A stretch of 24,734 nucleotides of DNA from a virus: positions 1 to 24,734 of IMG/VR virus record IMGVR_UViG_3300027710_000128; one strand, written 5' to 3'. The notes under the pieces are model-generated. The model worked only from the letters and a program-made list of their open reading frames with translations, had not been told where the DNA came from and did not search any database. Of this stretch, positions 1,261 through 19,476 are shown in pieces. The position numbers were made by a program, and so were the translations under genes. Each line of letters starts with the position of its first letter. The stretch's first letter is position 1.

Positions 1261-2314
1261 ATATCAAAAATTATTTAATGAATTAAAGCAAGAAAATGCC
1301 GTCAATACCGAGGTGAATGATCATCTTATGGTATTTGACGGCCTTTAGCTTAACACTTTTATTAGAAGTTTCGGCGCCACTCCGGCATATAATGAAGATG
1401 GCGATCATATTGGCGGAATAACTGGATTCTTATATTCAGTTGGCAAAACAATTAGAGACTTTAAACCTACTCGATGCATCATTGTATTTGATGGTAGAGG
1501 CGGCTCGGCAAAAAGAAAACGAATTTATAAAGATTATAAAGGAAACCGAGCAAACAAAACTAAATTGCGCAGACACGATCATCATGATTCTACATTGGAA
1601 CAAGAACAAGAATCAATGCGACATCAATTTAGTCGTTTAATTTCATATCTAGATAATTTGCCTGTTACATTTATTTCGATGGATGGAATTGAAGCAGATG
1701 ACACAATTGCATATATTGCTCAAATGTATGAAGACACTTGCAAAAAAATGACAATTGTTTCTACGGATAGAGATTTCTATCAATTAATAAGTCCTACATT
1801 GCAAGTTTGGTCACCAATCAAAAAGAAAATGTATAATGAAGAAACATTGATTGAGGAGTTTGGTGTTCATCCTGCAAATTATGTTGTATATCGTACATTT
1901 ACAGGAGATGCGTCAGACAATATTCCAGGAGTAGATGGATTTGGTCCAAAGACAATTTTAAAAACATTTCCAGAGCTTGTTACTAACATAGAATTTACCT
2001 TAACGGATTTACAAGAAAAATGTAACACCGAAATCCAATTGAATGAATCTAAAAATTATCAAAAAGTAATGAATAATTATGATACAATTGATAAAAATTA
2101 TAGATTAATGAACATAAAGCTTTTGGATATTCCTGCGCAGACCGCAACAAAAATACGAGGAATAATGGAACAACCAGTGCCTGAATTAAATAGGGCAGAA
2201 TTCCAACGTTTGTTTTATGAAGATAAAATGTGGGCAATAATGAGGAACTTGCCGGAATGGTTAACTAATACCTGGTTATCATTAAATGCATTTGCAAAAC
2301 AAACGCATAAATAA
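1253..2314 (+). CDS. 5'-3' exonuclease (T4 RNase H / FEN family), interrupted by an in-frame TAG at 1346-1348
   Basis: T4 RNase H-type flap exonuclease, which removes RNA primers during lagging-strand synthesis. The frame from ATG 1253 reads through M-V-F-D-G-L, hits TAG at codon 32, then continues in the same frame as L-N-T-F-I-R-S-F to TAA 2314. Family motifs: the first metal-binding Asp (residue 29, V-F-D-G), I-I-V-F-D-G-R-G-G-S, E-A-D-D-T-I, S-T-D-R-D-F-Y-Q-L, and G-D-A-S-D-N-I-P-G of the helix-hairpin-helix region. If one of the two CTT codons flanking the TAG is skipped together with the stop, the product is 351 residues and the conserved D-G-L-N-T-F is exact. Without this, a 31-residue peptide is made and no ATG-started product retains the first catalytic Asp. 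The rest of the gene has no other damage, arguing against an old pseudogene. A point mutant, readthrough or assembly error remain possible. Confidence 0.85.
1298..1351 (+). promoter_or_regulatory. Candidate translational hop site: stem-loop followed by CTT-TAG-CTT
   Basis: Bases 1298-1309 (GCCGTCAATACC) and 1330-1342 (GGTATTTGACGGC) are inverted complements: twelve pairs with one bulged T and a 20-base loop. The 3' arm ends directly before codon 31 of the exonuclease. Then come CTT (1343-1345), TAG (1346-1348) and CTT (1349-1351), all in frame. Identical codons on both sides of a stop, with structure behind the take-off codon, are what peptidyl-tRNA hopping needs. No T-run follows the stem, so it is not a terminator. 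Function is inferred. Confidence 0.55.
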
Positions 2315-7033: not shown

Positions 7034-7732
7034 ATGACGAAAAAACAAAGAAAACATCTAGAAACAGTTGCCCCTGGATATGCGAACGGTATATCAATGC
7101 AATTAGCAGTAAAGCAAACTTTGGAAGGTCCTGATGCTCAACTAACTCAACAAGAAAAACAACAAATAATTGATAACGCAGCATATCATTATGGATTGTT
7201 TTTAACGGCGTTAGGAGTATCTTGGGAATCAGATCCAAATTCATCTAATACACCTAACCGAGTTGCAAAAGCATATGTGACCGATTTATGGAAAGGTAGA
7301 TATGAACCAATGTCAGACATTACTTCATTTCCAAGTGATGGGTATGATGGAATTGTATTTGAAGGCGGTATTCCTTTAACTTCAATGTGTTCACATCATC
7401 ATCAAACCATTAGCGGAAAAGTCCATGTTGCATATATTCCAGCAGAAAATGGAAATGTAGTTGGATTAAGTAAAATTAATCGAGTAGTAGAACATTTCGG
7501 CAGACGCGGAGCTATACAAGAACAATTAACTGTAGCAATACAACATGCAATCGATGAACTTATAGAAGATAACAAAGGCGTTGCTGTAATGATTGAAGCA
7601 ACTCATAATTGTGTATCTTGTAGGGGTGTAAAACATATAGGTGCTTCAATGAAGACCGCAAAATTATCCGGAGCTTTTTTAGATGACGGAAATGCAAGAT
7701 CAGAATTTTATCAATTTGTAAAAGGTTATTAA
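7034..7732 (+). CDS. folE: GTP cyclohydrolase I
   Basis: A 232-residue FolE, converting GTP to dihydroneopterin triphosphate, the first step to both folate and 7-deazaguanines. Seen: N-R-V-A-K-A near residue 75, zinc site C-S-H-H-H (C119, H121-H123), K-I-N-R-V-V-E-H-F-G-R-R near 147-158, and H-N-C-V-S-C-R-G (H191, C193, C196). The catalytic core is complete. queD begins on its stop codon and queE follows downstream, so the pathway here is deazaguanine synthesis. The start follows AAGAACAAGTT, a 15-base context (through ATGA) shared with the GroES-like gene at 10165; the region 6976-7033 is AT-rich and may hold a promoter. Confidence 0.93.
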   Translation: MTKKQRKHLETVAPGYANGISMQLAVKQTLEGPDAQLTQQEKQQIIDNAAYHYGLFLTALGVSWESDPNSSNTPNRVAKAYVTDLWKGRYEPMSDITSFPSDGYDGIVFEGGIPLTSMCSHHHQTISGKVHVAYIPAENGNVVGLSKINRVVEHFGRRGAIQEQLTVAIQHAIDELIEDNKGVAVMIEATHNCVSCRGVKHIGASMKTAKLSGAFLDDGNARSEFYQFVKGY

Positions 7733-8208
7733 TGGGAAGATACATTAGCACAAAGCTATTTGAAAACTATTCAGTAGCATTAAGACAATGGCGAGCATCA
7801 CATTCGCATTGCGAGTTATTACATGGTTATGCTTTAAAATTTAAAGTATGGTTTGCATCAAATGAACCAATTGAAGAAAATCAATTAGACGATATGAATT
7901 GGATTGTTGATTATGGAGGATTCAAAGATGCACCAAAAGGAAATGGTATGAAATCTTGGATGAACCATATGTGGGATCATACCTTACTAATTGAAAAAGA
8001 TGATCCATATTTAGATTTCTTTGAATCCGCGGCAATGGAAGGCCTATGTGCACTTCGAGTAATGGATAAAATGGGAGCTGAGTCTTGTGCTAAGTTAGTG
8101 TTTGACAAGTTTAATGAAGTGTTAGCTAAAACGGATGCCGGACGATGCAAGTGCATCAAAGTAGAATGTTTTGAAAACGATAACAACTCAAGTATATATG
8201 AACAGTAA
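7732..8208 (+). CDS. queD: 6-carboxy-tetrahydropterin synthase (QueD-like)
   Basis: A 158-residue T-fold enzyme converting dihydroneopterin triphosphate to 6-carboxytetrahydropterin. Seen: R-A-S-H-S-H-C-E-L-L-H-G-Y near residues 21-33, with the zinc His (H24 or H26), catalytic Cys27 and zinc His31; N-W-I-V-D-Y-G-G; W-D-H-T-L-L-I, matching the L-D-H-x-x-L-N catalytic motif; and K-V-E-C-F-E near the end for the pterin-anchoring Glu. The usual H-G-H is H-G-Y here (Tyr33), so one expected zinc ligand is replaced. The ATG overlaps the folE stop by one base, implying coupled translation. Role in the pathway is well supported by folE and queE on either side. Confidence 0.88.
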   Translation: MGRYISTKLFENYSVALRQWRASHSHCELLHGYALKFKVWFASNEPIEENQLDDMNWIVDYGGFKDAPKGNGMKSWMNHMWDHTLLIEKDDPYLDFFESAAMEGLCALRVMDKMGAESCAKLVFDKFNEVLAKTDAGRCKCIKVECFENDNNSSIYEQ

Positions 8209-8461
8209 AGACCAAACAATGTTTGCTAATGAATTTGATGAAGCTATTATAGGATTAGACACATCGGCTGAGATCTTTCGAGTAGTTTACGATATCGATA
8301 AGATTATAGAAATCCTAATGGAGCGAGACGAAATGACTGAGGAAGATGCACAAGAGCATTTCAGTTATAACATTCAAGGTAGCTACGTAGGCAAAGGAAC
8401 ACCAATTTACGTTAACGGTGGTGGACATGAAAGAGTTTTAGAATTAATGAGTAATTTATAA
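8198..8461 (+). CDS. Small acidic protein, unknown
   Basis: An 87-residue protein not recognised. It is acidic and probably mostly helical: D-I-D-K-I-I-E-I-L-M-E-R-D-E-M-T-E-E-D-A-Q-E-H-F, then a Gly-rich stretch (Y-V-N-G-G-G-H-E-R). The middle segment looks like a helix pair rather than an enzyme site. ATG 8198 overlaps the end of queD by 11 bases; a TTG at 8171 and a second ATG at 8219 are alternatives. Its place between queD and queE suggests only co-expression. Confidence 0.6.
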   Translation: MNSKDQTMFANEFDEAIIGLDTSAEIFRVVYDIDKIIEILMERDEMTEEDAQEHFSYNIQGSYVGKGTPIYVNGGGHERVLELMSNL

Positions 8462-8464
8462 GTT

Positions 8465-8866
8465 ATGACAAAGGACGAACCAGCGCAAGCTACAGCAAAT
8501 AATGATACATATATGTCACTGTATGAATATTTAGGTAAAGGGTCTAGAGCCACCGGAACTGGGAAACTAGTATCAGCTGAAGCTATAAAACGTGGTATTA
8601 CAGTTCAAACTAGATTGCTACCTAAAGAAATGCAAAGGCCAGAATTTAACACAGTACAAGCATATCCGTTATCATTTTTAGATGAATACTTTGCTAATAA
8701 TGTAGAATATGATATGACGCCATTTGTACGAAGATCTGCATTAATTATGTTACAATCAAGAATAGATACCCTAGAAAAAAATTATGCGGAGCTAATTAAA
8801 TTATTGCCAACACCGACAATTGAATTAGCACCAAAAAATACAGAAGACGACGATTTACCATTTTAA
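8465..8866 (+). CDS. Unknown protein ending in an SSB-like acidic tip
   Basis: A 133-residue protein with no enzyme motif that I recognise. Residues 1-15 are polar, the centre is mixed, and a helical segment (R-I-D-T-L-E-K-N-Y-A-E-L-I-K-L-L) precedes a short tail ending E-D-D-D-L-P-F. That C-terminus matches the conserved tip of bacterial single-stranded DNA-binding proteins (D-D-D-I-P-F), which docks many repair and replication partners. No OB-fold pattern is evident, so it may be a mimic rather than an SSB. Start context AAGTT-ATG; three bases after the preceding gene and two before queE. Partner binding is inference. Confidence 0.7.
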   Translation: MTKDEPAQATANNDTYMSLYEYLGKGSRATGTGKLVSAEAIKRGITVQTRLLPKEMQRPEFNTVQAYPLSFLDEYFANNVEYDMTPFVRRSALIMLQSRIDTLEKNYAELIKLLPTPTIELAPKNTEDDDLPF

Positions 8867-8868
8867 TT

Positions 8869-9642
8869 ATGAGAAAAAGAATAGAAGATTACAATAAAAC
8901 ACTTCCAATTGTAGAATTGTACCGTTGTGTGCAAAGTGAAGGAAGTCGATTTGGCCGGCCAACAATTGCAGTAAGGACTACCGGATGTACGCATCGATGC
9001 TATTTTGGCGAAGGTGGTTGGTGCGATTCATGGTACACAAGTATTCACCCAGAAAAAGGAACATTTTGTTTTAATGACATCATTAAAATTTATGATGAAA
9101 ATCCGCATATTAAAGAAATGATGCTGACAGGAGGCTCACCAACAATGCATCCTGCACTAGTAAATGAATTAACACACTTTGCCCATGAAAGAGACATTCT
9201 TATCACTATTGAAACTGAAGGTTCACATTATGTTGAAACTGATTATCCTATTGGGCTACTTAGTATTAGTCCTAAGTTTGGTAATAGTGTTCCCGTTTTG
9301 GGTGTTGCTACGCCGCAGGGTACGATCACGGATCAAAAGATGGTAGATCAACACAACAAGTTCCGATTAAATTTTCATGGAATGCGACAAATGATTGACT
9401 TTCACACTGACTATCATTATAAGCCAGTATGGGACGGAACAGATAAAAGTCTAGAAGAAATTGAATCATTCCGCGTTGGATTAGATATTCCAAAAGATAA
9501 AACATATATTATGCCAGCAGGCGACACAAGAGATGAATTGGTTAAAATGTATCCAATTGTATTTGATATGTGTGCTGAGAAAGGATATAACATGACAGGC
9601 AGAGACCATATAATTGCATTTGACACTAAACGAGGAGTATAA
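8869..9642 (+). CDS. queE: 7-carboxy-7-deazaguanine synthase (radical SAM, QueE)
   Basis: A 257-residue radical SAM enzyme that contracts 6-carboxytetrahydropterin to 7-carboxy-7-deazaguanine. Seen: E-L-Y-R-C-V-Q-S-E-G-S-R-F-G-R-P (the QueE substrate-binding start), the cluster Cys at 40, 44 and 52, M-L-T-G-G-S-P near residue 88 (SAM-binding G-G motif), and M-P-A-G-D-T-R-D-E late. The cluster spacing is C-x3-C-x7-C rather than C-x3-C-x2-C, through a small Gly-rich insert; marine phage QueE proteins of this type are familiar to me, so it is probably active. With folE and queD it makes CDG; QueC, which would convert CDG to preQ0, is absent from the window. Confidence 0.9.
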   Translation: MRKRIEDYNKTLPIVELYRCVQSEGSRFGRPTIAVRTTGCTHRCYFGEGGWCDSWYTSIHPEKGTFCFNDIIKIYDENPHIKEMMLTGGSPTMHPALVNELTHFAHERDILITIETEGSHYVETDYPIGLLSISPKFGNSVPVLGVATPQGTITDQKMVDQHNKFRLNFHGMRQMIDFHTDYHYKPVWDGTDKSLEEIESFRVGLDIPKDKTYIMPAGDTRDELVKMYPIVFDMCAEKGYNMTGRDHIIAFDTKRGV

Positions 9643-11205: not shown

Positions 11206-11799
11206 ATGATTATCTATAAAACTACAAATTTAATTAATGGCAAATTTTATATTGGACAAGATTCAAAAAATAATCCAAATTATTTAGGAAGTGGTATGTT
11301 ATTAAATTCAGCAATTAAAAAATATGGACGATTGAATTTTCATAAAGATATTATTGAATATTGTGCTACTAAACAAATATTAAATGAACGAGAGATATTT
11401 TGGATAACAAAATTAAATCCTGTATATAATATAGCTAAAGGTGGTAATGGTGGCGATACATTAACAAATCATCCTAATTATGATTTAATTATTGAAAAGT
11501 TAAAACTTCGACCAATTCGAGTTTGGACAGAAAAACAAAAAGACCGTCAACGAGGAAATAATAACCCAGCAAAACGAATAGATGTACGAAATAAAATTAG
11601 TAAATCAAAATTAGGTAAACCTAGACCAGATCAATTAGGCGACTTAAATTCAGCAAAACGTCTAGATGTTAGGCAAAAAATTAGTTTAAAACTAAAAGGC
11701 GTAACTAAAAAGAAAATAAAATGTCCAACATGTAACACAGAAGGACAACCGTCAAATATGCACCGATGGCATTTTGACAATTGTAAATTTAAAAAATAA
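11206..11799 (+). CDS. GIY-YIG homing endonuclease
   Basis: A 197-residue free-standing homing endonuclease. The N-terminal catalytic domain has I-Y-K-T-T-N and F-Y-I-G-Q-D (the two GIY-YIG strands), L-G-S-G, K-Y-G-R-x-x-F and the metal-binding Glu in N-E-R-E-I-F-W-I (about 64-71). Two NUMOD-like DNA-binding repeats follow (N-P-A-K-R-I-D-V-R-N-K-I-S; N-S-A-K-R-L-D-V-R-Q-K-I-S). The C-terminus is a C-x2-C...R-W-H-F-D-N-C zinc finger, nearly the same as in the HNH enzyme at 625. It ends five bases before the DNA polymerase start, a typical insertion next to a conserved replication gene. It has its own upstream motif and ribosome-binding site. Confidence 0.9.
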   Translation: MIIYKTTNLINGKFYIGQDSKNNPNYLGSGMLLNSAIKKYGRLNFHKDIIEYCATKQILNEREIFWITKLNPVYNIAKGGNGGDTLTNHPNYDLIIEKLKLRPIRVWTEKQKDRQRGNNNPAKRIDVRNKISKSKLGKPRPDQLGDLNSAKRLDVRQKISLKLKGVTKKKIKCPTCNTEGQPSNMHRWHFDNCKFKK

Positions 11800-11804
11800 A
11801 ATAT

Positions 11805-14312
11805 ATGTATCAGGCAATAGGTTACGACAAGAAAGCGGGTATCATGCACGTTTGGGACGATGAATTAGGACATCGCAAATTTCCTTTTCAAGCATATGGA
11901 TATTTACCAAATTCTACGGGAATGTATCAAGCGCTTGATGGTACACGATTAAATCAAGTACCTGGCAATCATCGAGATAATCCTAAATCATATGAATCTG
12001 ACTTAAATGAAGAAGTTAGGACATTGATTGATTTATATTATGAATCAGATGAACCATCTAAAGGACATAAAGATTTCTTTTTCGATATTGAAACGGCAAA
12101 GGATGAAAATGGGTTTAGTACAATACAAGATGTTCGTACCGCAATTACTTCGATTGCATATTATGATAAAGCAGGAAAGGATCGACGAGTATTAATTTTA
12201 GATGAACAAGGTCGCATTAAAGAACATGAAATACAAGGCGATGGCTATGCAATTGAAATATTCCGCAATGAAAAAGATCTATTAACTAGATTTATTAATA
12301 TATTTGCACAAATACAACCAACCGTTATAACAGGATGGAATACGGACGGATATGATGTTCCTTATTTGATGGGACGATGCAAAAAAGTATTAGGTGCACA
12401 AGCAATCAGGAAATTTTCTCCTGCCGGCATAGTAGAACAAAGCAAAACCGGTAAATGGAAGATATTAGGAGTTTCTAGTTTAGATTACATTAAATTGTAT
12501 AAAAACTTTACATATACCGAACTACCTAATTATCGATTAGACACAGTTGCTAAAAAAGAATTGGATCGAGGCAAAGTTGAATATGATGGAGACTTGGATA
12601 CATTGTTTACTCAGGATATTCATAAATTTGCATATTATAATATGACCGATGTTGATCTTGTTTATGAAATGGATGAAAAGCTTCAACTTTTGAATTTAGC
12701 AAGATCAATTTGTCACAAAGGACATGTCCCATATGAAGATGTATATTACGCATCTAAATATTTGGATGGTGCTGCTATTGTTGATTTAAAACGCAATGGA
12801 TTTGTTGCCCCTAACAAGCAATTTAGATTTATTGAAGAAGAAACAATAGCAGATGCATTAGCAGGAGCATATGTAATGGCACCTGTACCAGGCCTGTATA
12901 AATGGATATATGATTTAGATTTAACTTCATTGTATCCTAGCATCATTATGACTGCAAACATATCTCCAGAAACTAAGGTAGCAGTAATAGAAAATTGGAA
13001 TCAAGAATGCTTATTGAAACAAGAACCACAACAAGTACAATTTATTGATGGAACTTTTGCGCAAGATGTTAAACAATGGCTAATCGACAAAAATTATTCA
13101 GTTGCTAGCAATGGCGCTGTGTATAGAAATGATCAGCGAGGATTCTTACCAACTATTCTAGAAAAATGGTTTAATGAGCGTGTTATCTTTAAAGATAAGC
13201 GTGACACATTCAAATTTGGTACAGAAGAATATAAATTTTATGATGCATTGCAATTAACACAAAAAGTATTGCTTAATTCATTTTATGGAGTATTAGGACT
13301 TAAAACGTTTCGTTTCTATGATTTGGATAATGCAGGTGCAATTACAGCGGTTGGTCAAAGTGTAATAAAATTTTCAGCTAAGGTTATTAATAACTATTAC
13401 AAAAAAGAGTTAGGCGTTGACCACTTTATTAATGCGAGTGGAGACAAAGCAGAATTTGCATTTTACACTGATACGGATTCAACCTTTTGTAGCAGTTTGC
13501 CATTAATTGAACATAGATTTCCTGGATGTGACATTAATGATGAAACATTTATGATTGAACAAACCAATGCAATTGCATCTGAAATACAAACAACGGTTAA
13601 TACAATGTATGACCAATATGCAAAAGTATTTCATAATACAGATACACATCGATTTCAAATTAAACAGGAATATATTGCAAAATCTGGTTTATGGATTGCC
13701 AAGAAAAGATATGCCCAATGGGTTATTTTTAAAGAAGGCAAATCTACGGATAAATTGGATGTAAAAGGATTGGATGTTGTTAGATCTAGTTTCCCGGAAG
13801 ATTTCAAAAAGATAATGAAAGAAACATTGTGGTATATCCTTAAAGGAAGAAACAAGCAAGATACCTCGACATTGATACATAACTTTAAAAATAACATTAA
13901 AAGTTCCAAAGTATTGAATGTAATGAAGAATTCAAGTGTTAAAGAATTATCTAAATATATCAAAGGAAGAAAACCATTTACAGGTTACATTAAAGGATCA
14001 ACAGCACACGTAAAAGCCGCAATTAATTTTAATGATTTATTGAGTACATTGACAACGGATATTTTACCTATATCTGACGGAGAAAAGGTAAAATGGGGTT
14101 ATCTAGTAGGTAATCCGTATGGGTTTGAAACTATTGCATTACGAGGATATTTAGATCCACCTGAAATAGTTGCATTTGCAGAACAATACATTGATCACAA
14201 TAAAATGTTCACAGCAGACCTAAGCAACAAGTTCAATGATTTCTATGCAGCAATGAGTTGGGGTGCATTACCAGAAAATAACAATGCAAAAAAGTTTTTT
14301 AACTTTGGATAA
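11805..14312 (+). CDS. DNA polymerase, family B (T4 gp43 type)
   Basis: An 835-residue replicative polymerase with proofreading. Exonuclease motifs: F-F-D-I-E-T near residue 94, G-W-N-T-D-G-Y-D-V-P-Y, and Y-N-M-T-D-V-D-L-V. Polymerase motifs: A, D-L-T-S-L-Y-P-S near 372; B, K-V-L-L-N-S-F-Y-G near 488; C, Y-T-D-T-D-S near 555; then K-K-R-Y-A, which contacts the primer. All catalytic acids are present and the frame is intact. Slightly shorter than T4 gp43 (898). It acts with the clamp at 19489 and clamp loader at 20808/22164. No Shine-Dalgarno precedes the ATG. Confidence 0.95.
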   Translation: MYQAIGYDKKAGIMHVWDDELGHRKFPFQAYGYLPNSTGMYQALDGTRLNQVPGNHRDNPKSYESDLNEEVRTLIDLYYESDEPSKGHKDFFFDIETAKDENGFSTIQDVRTAITSIAYYDKAGKDRRVLILDEQGRIKEHEIQGDGYAIEIFRNEKDLLTRFINIFAQIQPTVITGWNTDGYDVPYLMGRCKKVLGAQAIRKFSPAGIVEQSKTGKWKILGVSSLDYIKLYKNFTYTELPNYRLDTVAKKELDRGKVEYDGDLDTLFTQDIHKFAYYNMTDVDLVYEMDEKLQLLNLARSICHKGHVPYEDVYYASKYLDGAAIVDLKRNGFVAPNKQFRFIEEETIADALAGAYVMAPVPGLYKWIYDLDLTSLYPSIIMTANISPETKVAVIENWNQECLLKQEPQQVQFIDGTFAQDVKQWLIDKNYSVASNGAVYRNDQRGFLPTILEKWFNERVIFKDKRDTFKFGTEEYKFYDALQLTQKVLLNSFYGVLGLKTFRFYDLDNAGAITAVGQSVIKFSAKVINNYYKKELGVDHFINASGDKAEFAFYTDTDSTFCSSLPLIEHRFPGCDINDETFMIEQTNAIASEIQTTVNTMYDQYAKVFHNTDTHRFQIKQEYIAKSGLWIAKKRYAQWVIFKEGKSTDKLDVKGLDVVRSSFPEDFKKIMKETLWYILKGRNKQDTSTLIHNFKNNIKSSKVLNVMKNSSVKELSKYIKGRKPFTGYIKGSTAHVKAAINFNDLLSTLTTDILPISDGEKVKWGYLVGNPYGFETIALRGYLDPPEIVAFAEQYIDHNKMFTADLSNKFNDFYAAMSWGALPENNNAKKFFNFG

Positions 14313-14313
14313 T

Positions 14314-14345
14314 TAATTGTTTTTTTTTGTGTTATATTTATATGT
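14314..14345 (+). repeat. 32-bp exact repeat, copy 1: T9 tract plus TATATTTATATG (candidate late promoter)
   Basis: Identical over 32 bases to 15437-15468. It consists of TAATTG, nine Ts, GTGT and TATATTTATATG. The copy ends one base before ATG 14347. No other copy was noticed. Both copies precede genes with a capsid-targeting-type leader, so a shared late promoter is the best guess; a terminator role for the T-tract is possible but lacks a GC stem. Confidence 0.7.
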
Positions 14346-14346
14346 G

Positions 14347-15432
14347 ATGATAAAATTAAAACATTTACTATTAGAAGTTTCATTAGATCAACTAAAAACA
14401 CAATTTGTTGATACCGGTAAAATTACTGATAGTGAATTTACTGAAATTATTGATTCATCGGGCGGCAAATCTGCATATGCTACTTGGCTAACCAAACAAG
14501 TAGTAAATAAACTTATTAAACCAGAAGATTTATATAAATACAATGCATATTTTAAAGTATTCGATCGCCGTAAACGAGAATATGTATTTAACGACATCAA
14601 TCAATATAAAACGCAACAAGACTTAAATTCGTTTATTGTAAAATCAATTGAATTAGCATCACAAGAACAAAAAGATCCATCTCAACAAAAAGGTATTGCA
14701 AAATTTGATAAGTATAAAGAGTTTTTAATAGGATCAGTAGATGGATTCAATGTATACAAGTTACCTAAAAGACGTAAAGATTTATATGGGACGTCGTGTG
14801 AATTAGGCGCAGGAACTGAATGGTGCACTGCTTCTGGTAACACACAAAAGTACTTTAATTCCTATATTCGGAAAGGACCTTTATTTATTTTTATCAATCC
14901 GAGCTCTAATGAAAAATATCAATTTTCATATGAAACAAATTCGTTTATGGATAAAAACGATATGACTGTCAGTACAAACATAAATAATTTATTCAAATTT
15001 ATAGAAAATCAAGAATCACAATATACAGCGCCACTGCAATATAAACTTATATATGATTATAGCGCTATAACAGCAGATGATTTAACAGTGGATGGAGATC
15101 TAAATTTAACTGGCACACAAATAACATCACTGCCTGATAATTTAACAGTACATGGAAATTTTATTTTGCAGAACACACAAATAACATCACTGCCTGATAA
15201 TTTAACAGTGCATGGACTTCTAAGTTTATATAACACCCCAATAACATCACTGCCTGATAATTTAACAGTAAACGGCGATCTAGATTTAGACAATACACAA
15301 ATAACATCACTGCCTGATAATTTAACAGTTAAGGGTTATCTAGTTTTATATAACACCCCAGTATCTAAAAAATACACATTAGATCAACTTAATAAATTGC
15401 TGCCAGGCCTTAAAGGCCGAATACAAATATAA
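14347..15432 (+). CDS. Capsid-targeting-type protein with leucine-rich-repeat-like C-terminus
   Basis: A 361-residue protein starting at ATG 14347, giving the leader M-I-K-L-K-H-L-L-L-E; an in-frame start at 14317 would add a hydrophobic stretch encoded by the T-tract and is unlikely. The central part (about residues 115-220) has G-T-E-W-C-T-A-S, then G-P-L-F-I-F-I and K-Y-Q-F-S-Y-E-T-N-S-F-M-D, a domain I recall from many phage proteins of unknown role. Residues 239-338 hold five 20-residue repeats of the form I-T-S-L-P-D-N-L-T-V-x-G-x-L-x-L-x-x-T, leucine-rich-repeat-like. Such repeats usually bind proteins. Head packaging and injection are inferred from the leader alone. Confidence 0.8.
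   Translation: MIKLKHLLLEVSLDQLKTQFVDTGKITDSEFTEIIDSSGGKSAYATWLTKQVVNKLIKPEDLYKYNAYFKVFDRRKREYVFNDINQYKTQQDLNSFIVKSIELASQEQKDPSQQKGIAKFDKYKEFLIGSVDGFNVYKLPKRRKDLYGTSCELGAGTEWCTASGNTQKYFNSYIRKGPLFIFINPSSNEKYQFSYETNSFMDKNDMTVSTNINNLFKFIENQESQYTAPLQYKLIYDYSAITADDLTVDGDLNLTGTQITSLPDNLTVHGNFILQNTQITSLPDNLTVHGLLSLYNTPITSLPDNLTVNGDLDLDNTQITSLPDNLTVKGYLVLYNTPVSKKYTLDQLNKLLPGLKGRIQI
15061..15360 (+). repeat. Five tandem 60-bp coding repeats
   Basis: Units begin at 15061 (degenerate), 15121, 15181, 15241 and 15301. The last four share the first 29 bases exactly (ATAACATCACTGCCTGATAA continuing through TTTAACAGT), while the second half varies. Each unit is 20 codons, so gain or loss of units stays in frame. 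Confidence 0.92.
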
Positions 15433-17198: not shown

Positions 17199-18230
17199 AT
17201 GAAAATATTTTTAGTAGACCTAGAATCAATACCGACTCGGTATACTTGTGAATGGAAGGCACACGTACCACAACTATTGCGTGACAATGGATTTGATGTT
17301 CAAGTTATAGAAGGCGAACATACGATCCCAGAAGCCGTCACTCCAGGTGCATTTTTGAACTTCGGTGGTACTAACATGTACAAAGCAACACAGCTTCATA
17401 AGTTAGCAGAATTGTTTACGAAGGGCGGTATTGAATCAGGAGACCAAATTGTATTTACAGATGCGTGGCATCCTGCAATTATCAATGTAAAATACATGAG
17501 TGAACTTCTAAATATTCCTGTTGTAATGCACGGACTTTGGCACGCGGGTTCATATGACCCAAATGATTTTTTAGGTCGGCTCGTAGGAGATAAACCATGG
17601 ATTAGACACGCTGAACAATCCTTTATTGGAGCACTAGATCATAATTGGTTAGCAACTCAAGCACATTTTGATTTAATGCGTAAAACATATGATATCTATT
17701 TGGATCAATCATTTGATTGCACCGGGTGGCCAATGGAATATACCCGCAATGTAATTGCAACGGAATTGTTTGTTAAAAAAGAAAACATCATAGTATTTCC
17801 ACATAGAATAGCTCCTGAAAAGCGTTTGGATTTATTTGAAGAATTAGCTGCACGACCAGAATTAGCACACTATCAATTTTGTGTAGCAATGGATATGAAT
17901 TTAACCAAAGCAGAATATCACAAATTGCTTCAACGATCCAAATTTGCAGTATCATTTGCAGATCAGGAAACATTGGGAATTTCAATGTATGAATCAGCGT
18001 GTGCAGGAGCATGCCCTTTAGTACCTGATCGGTTATCATATACAGAAATGTATGATCCAATGTTTAAATGTGCTGACAGTGTTGATGACGCTGTTACGGC
18101 AATATTAAAATATGAACAACTCGATTTAACGGAAAATGTTGCACAACTAGCAACCAAATTACATAATAAATATTTTTCAGCAACTAGATTAATTAATAAA
18201 CTAAAAGAATACAATGAACGAACAAGATAA
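17199..18230 (+). CDS. Glycosyltransferase, GT-B fold (GT4-like)
   Basis: A 343-residue glycosyltransferase. The N-terminal half reads as a Rossmann-like acceptor domain (M-K-I-F-L-V-D-L-E; I-V-F-T-D-A-W-H-P-A; I-P-V-V-M-H-G-L-W-H-A). The C-terminal donor domain has F-P-H-R-I-A-P-E-K-R-L-D near residue 201 (the R/K phosphate contacts of GT4 enzymes) and T-L-G-I-S-M-Y-E-S-A-C-A-G-A-C-P-L-V near 257-274, the E-x7-E-like donor-binding region. It overlaps dpdA by 17 bases, implying tight co-expression, so sugar addition to DNA or to a modified base is a fair hypothesis. A role on host surface sugars cannot be excluded. Confidence 0.8.
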   Translation: MKIFLVDLESIPTRYTCEWKAHVPQLLRDNGFDVQVIEGEHTIPEAVTPGAFLNFGGTNMYKATQLHKLAELFTKGGIESGDQIVFTDAWHPAIINVKYMSELLNIPVVMHGLWHAGSYDPNDFLGRLVGDKPWIRHAEQSFIGALDHNWLATQAHFDLMRKTYDIYLDQSFDCTGWPMEYTRNVIATELFVKKENIIVFPHRIAPEKRLDLFEELAARPELAHYQFCVAMDMNLTKAEYHKLLQRSKFAVSFADQETLGISMYESACAGACPLVPDRLSYTEMYDPMFKCADSVDDAVTAILKYEQLDLTENVAQLATKLHNKYFSATRLINKLKEYNERTR

Positions 18231-19476
18231 ACGGTTCATATACTTTCCGTCGTTGTCTGCAGGCTCAATGGTCTCGGCATTCAAGAAAGATATGAAATTT
18301 GATAATGGAGACCCGGTAAAGTTCTTCGACTCGAGGTATCCCGATAAGTGGCGGCACCCATATTTTCTAATCACAGCAGGACACCATTACAAGAAAATGG
18401 ATTTCCGCAATGAAATAGGCTTAGAAAAAGATGTTCTAGTATTTGGCGATTCAGGAGGATATCAGATTGCAACAGGTGCATTACCATATAGCAATGAATT
18501 GCGTGAAAAGATATTTCATTGGTTAGAAGCTAATAGTGATGTAGCCGCAAACTTAGATATTCCACCTAAAACAATGTATAGAAATAAATTTGCAGAATGT
18601 GCTGACATTAGTTATGACAATTTTGCTTATTTTGAAAAACATCAAAGCGGCAAGACAAAATATCTTAACATGTTGCAAGGATCTAACACTGATGAATATA
18701 CTTGGTGGTATCACAAATTTAAGCATTTTGATTTTCAAGGATGGGCGATTGGAGGTCCACAAAAATTAGTAGACTTCATGTTTGCGGTTGCATTAATGCT
18801 CAAAGAAAAAACATTTGAAAATCCTAGATTAGAATATTTGCACTTATTGGGTATTAGTAAAATATCCGACTTTTTTATTCTAGCAACATTGCAAAAGTTA
18901 ATGAATAAGAATTATGGCAATAGAATCTATGTAACAACGGATTCATCATCGCCAGGACAATATCCAGTATATGGAACATATCTTCATTCTGCAAATTATA
19001 AAACACAAACCTTTTCGGAATTGTATTTTCCTAAAAATGCTGAATATAGAAGACAGGCACATATCCGACAAGGAAAGACGGGCGATGTAGCCGTCGATTT
19101 AACAAAACATGTACCATGTGCATTACATTGCCCAGCGTGTGCCGATTTTACCTATGATTTCTTAGGAGGAAAAACACCTGCAGGATTGGATCGTTATTCA
19201 CAAGAAGCTATGCCAAGAATGGTTGTTCACAATGTGCATTTGTATGTGCAATGTGCAGAAGAAATCAATCAATTAGTAGACAGTCATGTAGAATTGCTAG
19301 AAACAGTAATACCTAGAGATTTATATGATGTTATTTTGTCACTACATGAAATGTTTGCAGATCCAGACGCAGCATTACAAACATATGAAAAATATATTAA
19401 AACATATAAAAAGTTTGGTGGAAGTAGTATATCTACCACCGATGCCGAAAATTTCAATAAATACTTTACCTTTTAA
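18214..19476 (+). CDS. dpdA: DpdA-like DNA (tRNA-guanine-type) transglycosylase
   Basis: A 420-residue TIM-barrel protein of the TGT superfamily. Seen: V-F-G-D-S-G-G-Y-Q at 76-84 (TGT Asp, D79, and substrate loop), N-L-D-I-P-P, G-W-A-I-G-G-P-Q (phosphate-binding Gly loop), V-T-T-D-S-S-S-P-G with the likely nucleophile D243, and a zinc site C302-x3-C306-x2-C309 with a later His (339 or 342). Phage members of this family (DpdA) exchange guanine in DNA for a 7-deazaguanine, protecting the genome from restriction. folE, queD and queE are in the same window, which supports DNA rather than tRNA as substrate. The exact base (preQ0 or a derivative) cannot be told here. The ATG lies inside the glycosyltransferase gene. 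Confidence 0.87.
   Translation: MNEQDKRFIYFPSLSAGSMVSAFKKDMKFDNGDPVKFFDSRYPDKWRHPYFLITAGHHYKKMDFRNEIGLEKDVLVFGDSGGYQIATGALPYSNELREKIFHWLEANSDVAANLDIPPKTMYRNKFAECADISYDNFAYFEKHQSGKTKYLNMLQGSNTDEYTWWYHKFKHFDFQGWAIGGPQKLVDFMFAVALMLKEKTFENPRLEYLHLLGISKISDFFILATLQKLMNKNYGNRIYVTTDSSSPGQYPVYGTYLHSANYKTQTFSELYFPKNAEYRRQAHIRQGKTGDVAVDLTKHVPCALHCPACADFTYDFLGGKTPAGLDRYSQEAMPRMVVHNVHLYVQCAEEINQLVDSHVELLETVIPRDLYDVILSLHEMFADPDAALQTYEKYIKTYKKFGGSSISTTDAENFNKYFTF

Follow-up and report, generated by a model that had tools for sequence, protein, structure and literature searches.

Efficient programmed bypassing by the ribosome has so far been studied essentially on one gene, gene 60 of bacteriophage T4, in which a 50-nt gap between two GGA codons is bypassed, a stop codon follows the take-off codon, and the mobA endonuclease gene, now defective, is found nearby. 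The bypassing of gene 60 was reported to be unique to T4 (PMC3014915), its 5' stem has been proposed as the motor, and protection from the mobA nuclease has been suggested as a role of its insert (PMC5009743). Synthetic in-frame hops over a stop flanked by matched codons work in E. coli (Weiss et al. 1987, cited in PMC5009743), and a 2016 review of recoding lists this kind of hop as one without known natural occurrence (PMC5009743). A paper from 2024 cites such bypassing only for gene 60 and the yeast mitochondrial cases (PMC11194080).

The 24,734-nt stretch of viral DNA analyzed here (IMG/VR record IMGVR_UViG_3300027710_000128, referred to below as the window) includes a 5'-3' exonuclease gene with an in-frame stop codon that we propose to be hopped. 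The element resembles the gene 60/mobA system in having a take-off codon directly before a stop (UAG), a matched landing codon, a 5' stem-loop and an adjoining homing endonuclease gene and, in the proposed reading, in the restoration of an intact protein. On the other hand, the gene 60 gap has 50 nt and its bypassing changes the frame, while the exonuclease gap has 6 nt and is in frame, and the exonuclease element, unlike gene 60 bypassing, occurs in many divergent phages. The synthetic stop hops, which share with it the matched codons around the stop, are reporter constructs that yield a single amino acid from nine nucleotides; in the natural form there is in addition a dedicated hairpin. The byp elements of Magnusiomyces mitochondria are also short bypassed coding inserts, possibly mobile, but they are organellar, are present in many genes and have been described as apparently independent of mRNA context; to our knowledge they do not show a stop-plus-CUN signature. 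The prfB +1 frameshift (CUU UGA C) also has a CUU take-off codon preceding a stop, but it shifts one nucleotide under the action of a Shine-Dalgarno sequence located 3 nt upstream, while the exonuclease element keeps the frame.

No description of such an element was found in the literature searched, which covered few subscription journals or preprints, and a natural in-frame stop hop appears not to have been described before. A preliminary description of the window, made from the sequence alone, had suggested a minimal natural hop that was possibly undescribed, and the absence of any account in that literature, including the 2016 review (PMC5009743), supports this suggestion. A natural family composed of CUN, stop, CUN and a single hairpin, with about 20 distinct hairpin sequences and matched stop-free relatives, would make the requirements for release and re-gripping by the ribosome directly testable. 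The pairing of a ribosome-bypass insert and a homing endonuclease is apparently not confined to T4, and gene finders will miss or truncate stop-hop genes.

The interrupted exonuclease gene

The features of the region are as follows.

1-606, + strand: UvsX/RecA-like recombinase gene, 3' part (Pfam RecA, E 4e-27; PHROG 97)
607-1430, + strand: transferred tract, recognized by a drop in identity, consisting of the endonuclease insertion (607-1252) and a foreign flank (1253 to about 1430) that includes the hairpin and the stop
625-1260, + strand: gene for a free-standing homing endonuclease (PHROG 655, NUMOD3), between uvsX and the exonuclease gene
1253-2314, + strand: 5'-3' exonuclease gene of the T4 RNase H/Pol I 5'-nuclease type (Pfam, PHROG 107), with the in-frame TAG inside
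1298-1342, + strand: 5' stem-loop of 19 bp, -23 kcal/mol (RNAfold, z -6.6, covariation)
1298-1316 and 1321-1342, + strand: 5' and 3' arms of the stem-loop, with two small bulges
1343-1345, + strand: take-off codon CTT (Leu), CTN in every carrier
1346-1348, + strand: stop codon TAG, proposed to be hopped (a stop in 35/35 viral matches when the middle codon is free)
1349-1351, + strand: landing codon CTT, which with the TAG makes up the six extra nucleotides (alignment to the stop-free locus L004)

Read from the ATG at 1253, the exonuclease frame codes for MNRYQKLFNELKQENAVNTEVNDHLMVFDG, which ends in VFDG and is followed by CTT, TAG, CTT and then NTFIRSFG; after the TAG it stays open through 2311, with a TAA at 2312-2314. 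The part after the stop matches the Pfam families 5_3_exonuc_N (PF02739, E 3e-30) and 5_3_exonuc (PF01367, E 6e-10), the product was assigned to the PHROG 107 exonucleases, and its PDB matches include Taq Pol I, ExoIX/Xni, T5 exonuclease and T4 RNase H. The N-terminal nuclease domain with acidic metal ligands expected of the 5'-3' exonuclease/FEN family is present. In an alignment of a stop-free relative the DG preceding the stop site is aligned with VLLVDG of Taq polymerase, the Asp of which we take to be the first catalytic Asp; the catalytic role of this residue is established for the family. Taking out TAGCTT gives back the exact family sequence DGLNTF.

Among carriers of the element the dN/dS values after the stop were 0.01-0.20, including those of pairs only 68-75% identical, and in stop-free relatives they were 0.07-0.09; the post-stop part is under strong purifying selection. 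The frames of the carriers are intact, without other stops or frameshifts. A sequencing error is excluded because near-identical carriers come from separate metagenome assemblies, and the element is found in identical form in independent assemblies as well as in divergent phages. The interruption is therefore neither a sequencing error nor the mark of a decayed gene. The preliminary description had located CTT-TAG-CTT at 1343-1351 in the exonuclease gene, beside the first catalytic Asp, which held exactly; its statement that the rest of the gene is undamaged also held, as shown by the open frame and the selection after the stop.

The exact sequence CTTTAGCTT is found once in the window when both strands are counted. 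A stop triplet lies between identical codons by chance in 82 of 3128 cases (2.6%), so that the codon-triplet match is weak evidence on its own; the case rests on the comparison with other loci.

TAG terminates four genes of the window, at 1260, 10697, 11170 and 22879, and is therefore a normal stop there; TAG, TGA and TAA all act as normal stops in the window. The earlier claims that TAG ends at least four genes and that genome-wide recoding is unlikely both held, the positions then cited (625, 10461, 10667 and 22640) being those of the gene starts. Genome-wide recoding of TAG was ruled out, as TAG ends genes of the window and the stops vary between carriers. No tRNA genes were found in the window or in 21 carrier loci (loci and not whole genomes), which together with the use of all three stops is evidence against a suppressor; given also the normal stops of the window, neither a suppressor tRNA nor a reassigned codon is supported within these loci. 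Frameshifts at CTT-T were rejected as well, since a shift to +1 meets a stop after about 25 codons and a shift to -1 does so nearly immediately. AlphaFold models of the readthrough and stop-free forms had mean pLDDT values of 46.6 and 43.1, respectively, too low to use.

Recurrence of the insertion and codons flanking the stop

The exact CTTTAGCTT is present in four of the 80 nearest exonuclease loci of IMG/VR, while the other 76 have an uninterrupted DGLN, and alignment of the window to the stop-free locus L004 shows a clean 6-nt insertion. The check proposed beforehand, a clean insertion of six nucleotides absent from otherwise conserved relatives, was thus positive. An exact search for the element gave 12 contigs, in which a core of about 55 nt (hairpin, CTT, TAG, CTTAA) is nearly invariant and the flanks come from different alleles. 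The exonuclease is uninterrupted in the cultured relatives Microcystis phage Mel-JY01 and the Flavobacterium immuto phages, and likewise in the uncultured LR756508.

Far carriers were sought with the degenerate pattern DG-[Leu]-TRR-[Leu]-NTFI, which was found in 35 contigs, 23 of them new (L172-L194). One of the new contigs, L190, falls in the window's own clade; the other 22 show the same arrangement, with TAG, TGA or TAA as the stop, in exonucleases about 40% identical to that of the window, and their usual gene order is single-strand-binding protein, uvsX/recA, exonuclease. When any flanking codon was allowed two further carriers were obtained, with CTT-TGA-CGA and CTT-TGA-GTA (L201 and L203), and the total came to 27 distinct sequence contexts. 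On a tree of 164 exonucleases the stop character changes 14 times, at least 6 of which are forced by well-supported branches; gain, loss or transfer of the element has therefore occurred repeatedly. A search for the signature in other genes of the retrieved loci gave 22 matches in the exonuclease and, elsewhere, scattered chance matches, mostly in genome contigs.

Maintenance of the stop was assessed with the pattern DG-CTN-NNN-CTN-NTFI, in which the middle codon is free, on 2.9 million viral contigs. The middle codon was a stop in all 35 contigs that matched (TAG 20, TGA 12, TAA 3), and no sense-codon version of the insertion was found among them (0/35). In 257 Gb of bacterial and archaeal genomes the same pattern was matched ten times by chance; the middle codon was a sense codon in each case, and no match lay in an exonuclease. 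The stop is therefore an integral part of the element, and nothing speaks more strongly against readthrough and chance than the 35/35 count.

The codons flanking the stop are also restricted. The take-off codon is CTT, CTC or CTG in all 27 distinct contexts, even though CTN makes up just 12-48% of the Leu codons after the stop in most carriers and 27.6% of those across the genes of the window, these phages using mostly TTR for Leu. Stop-free relatives mostly have TTG or TTA at the take-off position, and a scan that allowed TTN found no TTN codon on either flank. A rough estimate for the take-off codon alone, obtained as the product of the CTN fractions in about nine lineages, is of the order of 1e-4. 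Both flanks are CTN in all but two distinct contexts, the exceptions having CGA and GTA as landing triplets; re-pairing in these two would rest on 2 of 3 bases. Take-off and landing codons often differ, and then usually at the wobble base (CTC/CTT, CTT/CTG, CTT/CTA), which fits the re-pairing of one tRNA-Leu and not slippage on a DNA or RNA repeat. Strictly identical flanking codons are not required, and the earlier emphasis on identity held only in part: the codons are identical in the window, differ at the wobble base in many carriers, and are replaced by CGA or GTA at landing in two.

The 5' hairpin and the homing endonuclease

The 3' arm of the window's hairpin stops right at the take-off codon, and its z-score of -6.6 was obtained against synonymous-codon shuffles. 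A stem of 15-24 bp was predicted in 20/20 distinct upstream regions, with the 3' arm ending 0-1 nt before take-off. The carrier hairpins had a mean z of -5.4 (range -2.9 to -7.8, protein-preserving shuffles) vs a mean of -0.87 for 164 stop-free regions (Mann-Whitney p 2e-12). The base pairs show compensatory changes, covarying between carriers, and the pair that involves the Asp codon's third base is G-C in 9/20 carriers and A-U in 11/20. In one clade the pair count was 95.0% vs 91.6% in shuffles, and the covariation score was 0.233 vs 0.166, a value reached by 2/500 shuffles; slid versions of the hairpin alignment paired at 24-77%. This strong 5' hairpin abutting the take-off codon of every carrier was absent from the preliminary description, as were the finding that the window copy is a homing-endonuclease cassette and the wide distribution of the element with all three stop codons.

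Folding of T4 gene 60 as a control gave a 5' stem of -12 kcal/mol ending 9 nt before take-off and a second stem-loop that includes and follows the take-off codon. The stem of the exonuclease element, by comparison, abuts take-off and has about twice this stability, and no second (A-site) stem was seen. A take-off stem-loop formed in the A site by gap RNA is ruled out here because a 6-nt gap cannot contain one, and folding of the distinct carriers predicted no consistent structure 3' of take-off. An advance of 6 nt would permit several further base pairs in the 5' hairpin, worth about 5-6 kcal/mol in most carriers and little in a few, if one assumes that the ribosome covers about 13 nt of the 3' arm at the moment of take-off.

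The hairpin is a constant companion of the stop and is not exclusive to carriers, which makes its presence alone a weak argument. Among stop-free rows of the tree an abutting hairpin was found in 25/142 at z<-2 and in 5/142 at z<-3.7, and stop-free mates from the window's population have one of -18.7 kcal/mol. It may therefore have another function or be older than the stop, and it is possible that it persists when the stop is lost through deletion of 6 nt between the CTN repeats. In six stop-free loci of the window's clade (L002, L004, L005, L008, L029 and L071) a strong hairpin ends at the same Asp-Gly codons, and its role there is unexplained. Six stop-free loci of other clades (L213, L218, L226, L231, L288 and L362) retain a CTN codon together with the abutting hairpin, which is what a precise deletion of the stop and one CTN, between the CTN repeats, would leave.

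The window is 98.2% identical up to position 606 to stop-free L002, L004 and L005, which belong to the same phage population. Identity falls to 63-83% in 1253-1432, the tract with the hairpin and the stop, and between about 1433 and 2750 it is 93-100% in 60-nt blocks compared with L004 (mean about 96% by blastn), being slightly lower beyond. An endonuclease insertion and a divergent tract between near-identical flanks are the pattern expected of homing with co-conversion, and the tract was transferred together with the endonuclease gene. In stop-free relatives the uvsX stop overlaps the exonuclease start (TAATG); in the window it is the end of the endonuclease gene (1260) that overlaps this start (1253).

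Within the window's clade the endonuclease lies immediately upstream in 12/12 distinct stop-bearing alleles, while among the stop-free alleles with enough sequence it is present in 7/61 and absent in 54/61 (Fisher p 3e-9). Some loci were found via the endonuclease, which inflates the carrier count. Outside this clade a related endonuclease was absent from 20 far carriers, 2 others having too little upstream sequence; the linkage is limited to one clade. The endonuclease gene is broken in L086 (2501-3133) by a Trp codon changed to TAG and in L190 by a frameshift, and both still have the exonuclease stop element. A different NUMOD/HNH-like ORF, at L172:1794-2798, occupies the uvsX-exonuclease junction and adjoins a CTT-TAA-CTG element; possibly it is a second type of endonuclease linked to the same site. 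The window also includes a second homing endonuclease gene (GIY-YIG/SegE-like, PHROG 314), at 11206-11799, directly before the DNA polymerase gene (11805-14312), and no stop element was seen in this polymerase ORF.

Proposed decoding event and rival explanations

The best explanation, to which we assign a probability of about 0.8 in the absence of protein data, is in our view that peptidyl-tRNA-Leu makes a programmed in-frame hop of +6 across the stop, driven by the 5' hairpin. As a ribosome decodes the CUN that directly follows the Asp-Gly of the first metal-binding motif, the hairpin would re-form in the mRNA behind it. Once the stop codon occupies the A site, the peptidyl-tRNA-Leu would release the CUN, completion of the hairpin would pull the mRNA backwards through the ribosome, and the tRNA would re-pair six nucleotides on, usually at another CUN, translation restarting at AAY (Asn). 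The predicted product, DGLNTF..., is the same as in uninterrupted relatives. The element travels with the upstream homing endonuclease in the window's clade and probably makes the carrier's own target uncleavable, a role also suggested for T4 mobA and gene 60. The insertion, its recurrence, the maintenance of the stop, the CUN restriction, the conserved and covarying hairpin, the selection downstream and the co-transferred tract are shown by the comparisons above; it is an inference that decoding proceeds by hopping, that the hairpin is its motor and that the insert protects from the endonuclease, and the same holds for any role in regulation. Without proteomic or ribosome-profiling data, a full-length product lacking the gap-encoded residues is at most an inference, and so is any nascent-peptide signal; the peptides upstream of the stop have about 31-41 residues and vary between carriers. 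The six-nucleotide hop claimed in the preliminary description is supported by stop maintenance, CUN flanks and downstream selection, its distinction from readthrough being inferred without protein evidence. Points that count against the proposal are the lack of an A-site stem-loop, the CGA and GTA landings, the hairpins of stop-free relatives and the restriction of the endonuclease link to one clade.

The main rival, which we consider unlikely, is programmed readthrough, in which a near-cognate tRNA would decode the stop, X-Leu would be added after Asp-Gly-Leu, and expression would be low-level or regulated. It is also compatible with an in-frame stop that is conserved and has an intact gene behind it, and the products of a 9-nt stop hop and of readthrough differ by two amino acids only (PMC5009743). 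Readthrough is disfavored because two of its predictions fail: sense codons should be tolerated, but two extra residues at the stop site are never seen (sense codon 0/35), and there should be no CUN rule, but CUN is present at both flanks, for which readthrough gives no reason. Further points against it are the use of all three stop codons, a stimulatory structure located 5' with no consistent one predicted 3', and the Arg or Val at the landing position in two carriers.

The remaining alternatives seem to us very unlikely. The insertion could merely inactivate a dispensable exonuclease while the endonuclease cassette spreads regardless; T4 RNase H is dispensable, and homing endonucleases are able to spread without benefit to the host. 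Against this stand the low dN/dS after the stop, also for carriers only 68-75% identical, the lack of further stops or frameshifts, the fact that sense and stop variants are not interchangeable, and the persistence of the element where the endonuclease is gone. A protein in two pieces, made by termination and re-initiation at a non-AUG codon and then assembled, would have a parallel in the split NrdA of phage Aeh1, and split phage enzymes beside homing endonucleases are known (PMC2988022). However, the first piece would be only the short upstream peptide with one catalytic Asp, the window junction (CTT, AAC, ACT, TTT, ATT) has no ATG, GTG or TTG start, and the exact 6-nt spacing and the CUN codons would be left unexplained. 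Loss of the six nucleotides at the RNA level, by polymerase slippage between the CTN repeats or by processing at the hairpin, could be favored in the window by the direct CTT repeats and the adjoining hairpin, but third-base differences break a nucleic-acid repeat and not codon-anticodon pairing, and such a loss would not require a stop. No mechanism is known to us that removes 6 nt in this way.

Returning to the hop, a bolder reading is that in-frame stop hops of six nucleotides form a natural class widespread among phages. Such hops would be driven by a single abutting hairpin without an A-site stem-loop, would have been repeatedly gained and lost, would be moved by homing endonucleases in some lineages and kept without them in others, and might serve as a switch that senses termination capacity and controls a replication nuclease. 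We consider this reading likely.

Elsewhere in the window, an ORF at 14317-15432 without a Pfam match contains a leucine-rich-repeat-like unit of about 20 residues (ITSLPDNLTV...) in at least four near-identical copies. The regions 7034-9642 and 18214-19476 include GTP cyclohydrolase I and 6-pyruvoyl-tetrahydropterin-synthase-like genes, a radical-SAM-looking ORF and a TGT-like ORF without a Pfam match, which may point to a 7-deazaguanine DNA modification pathway.
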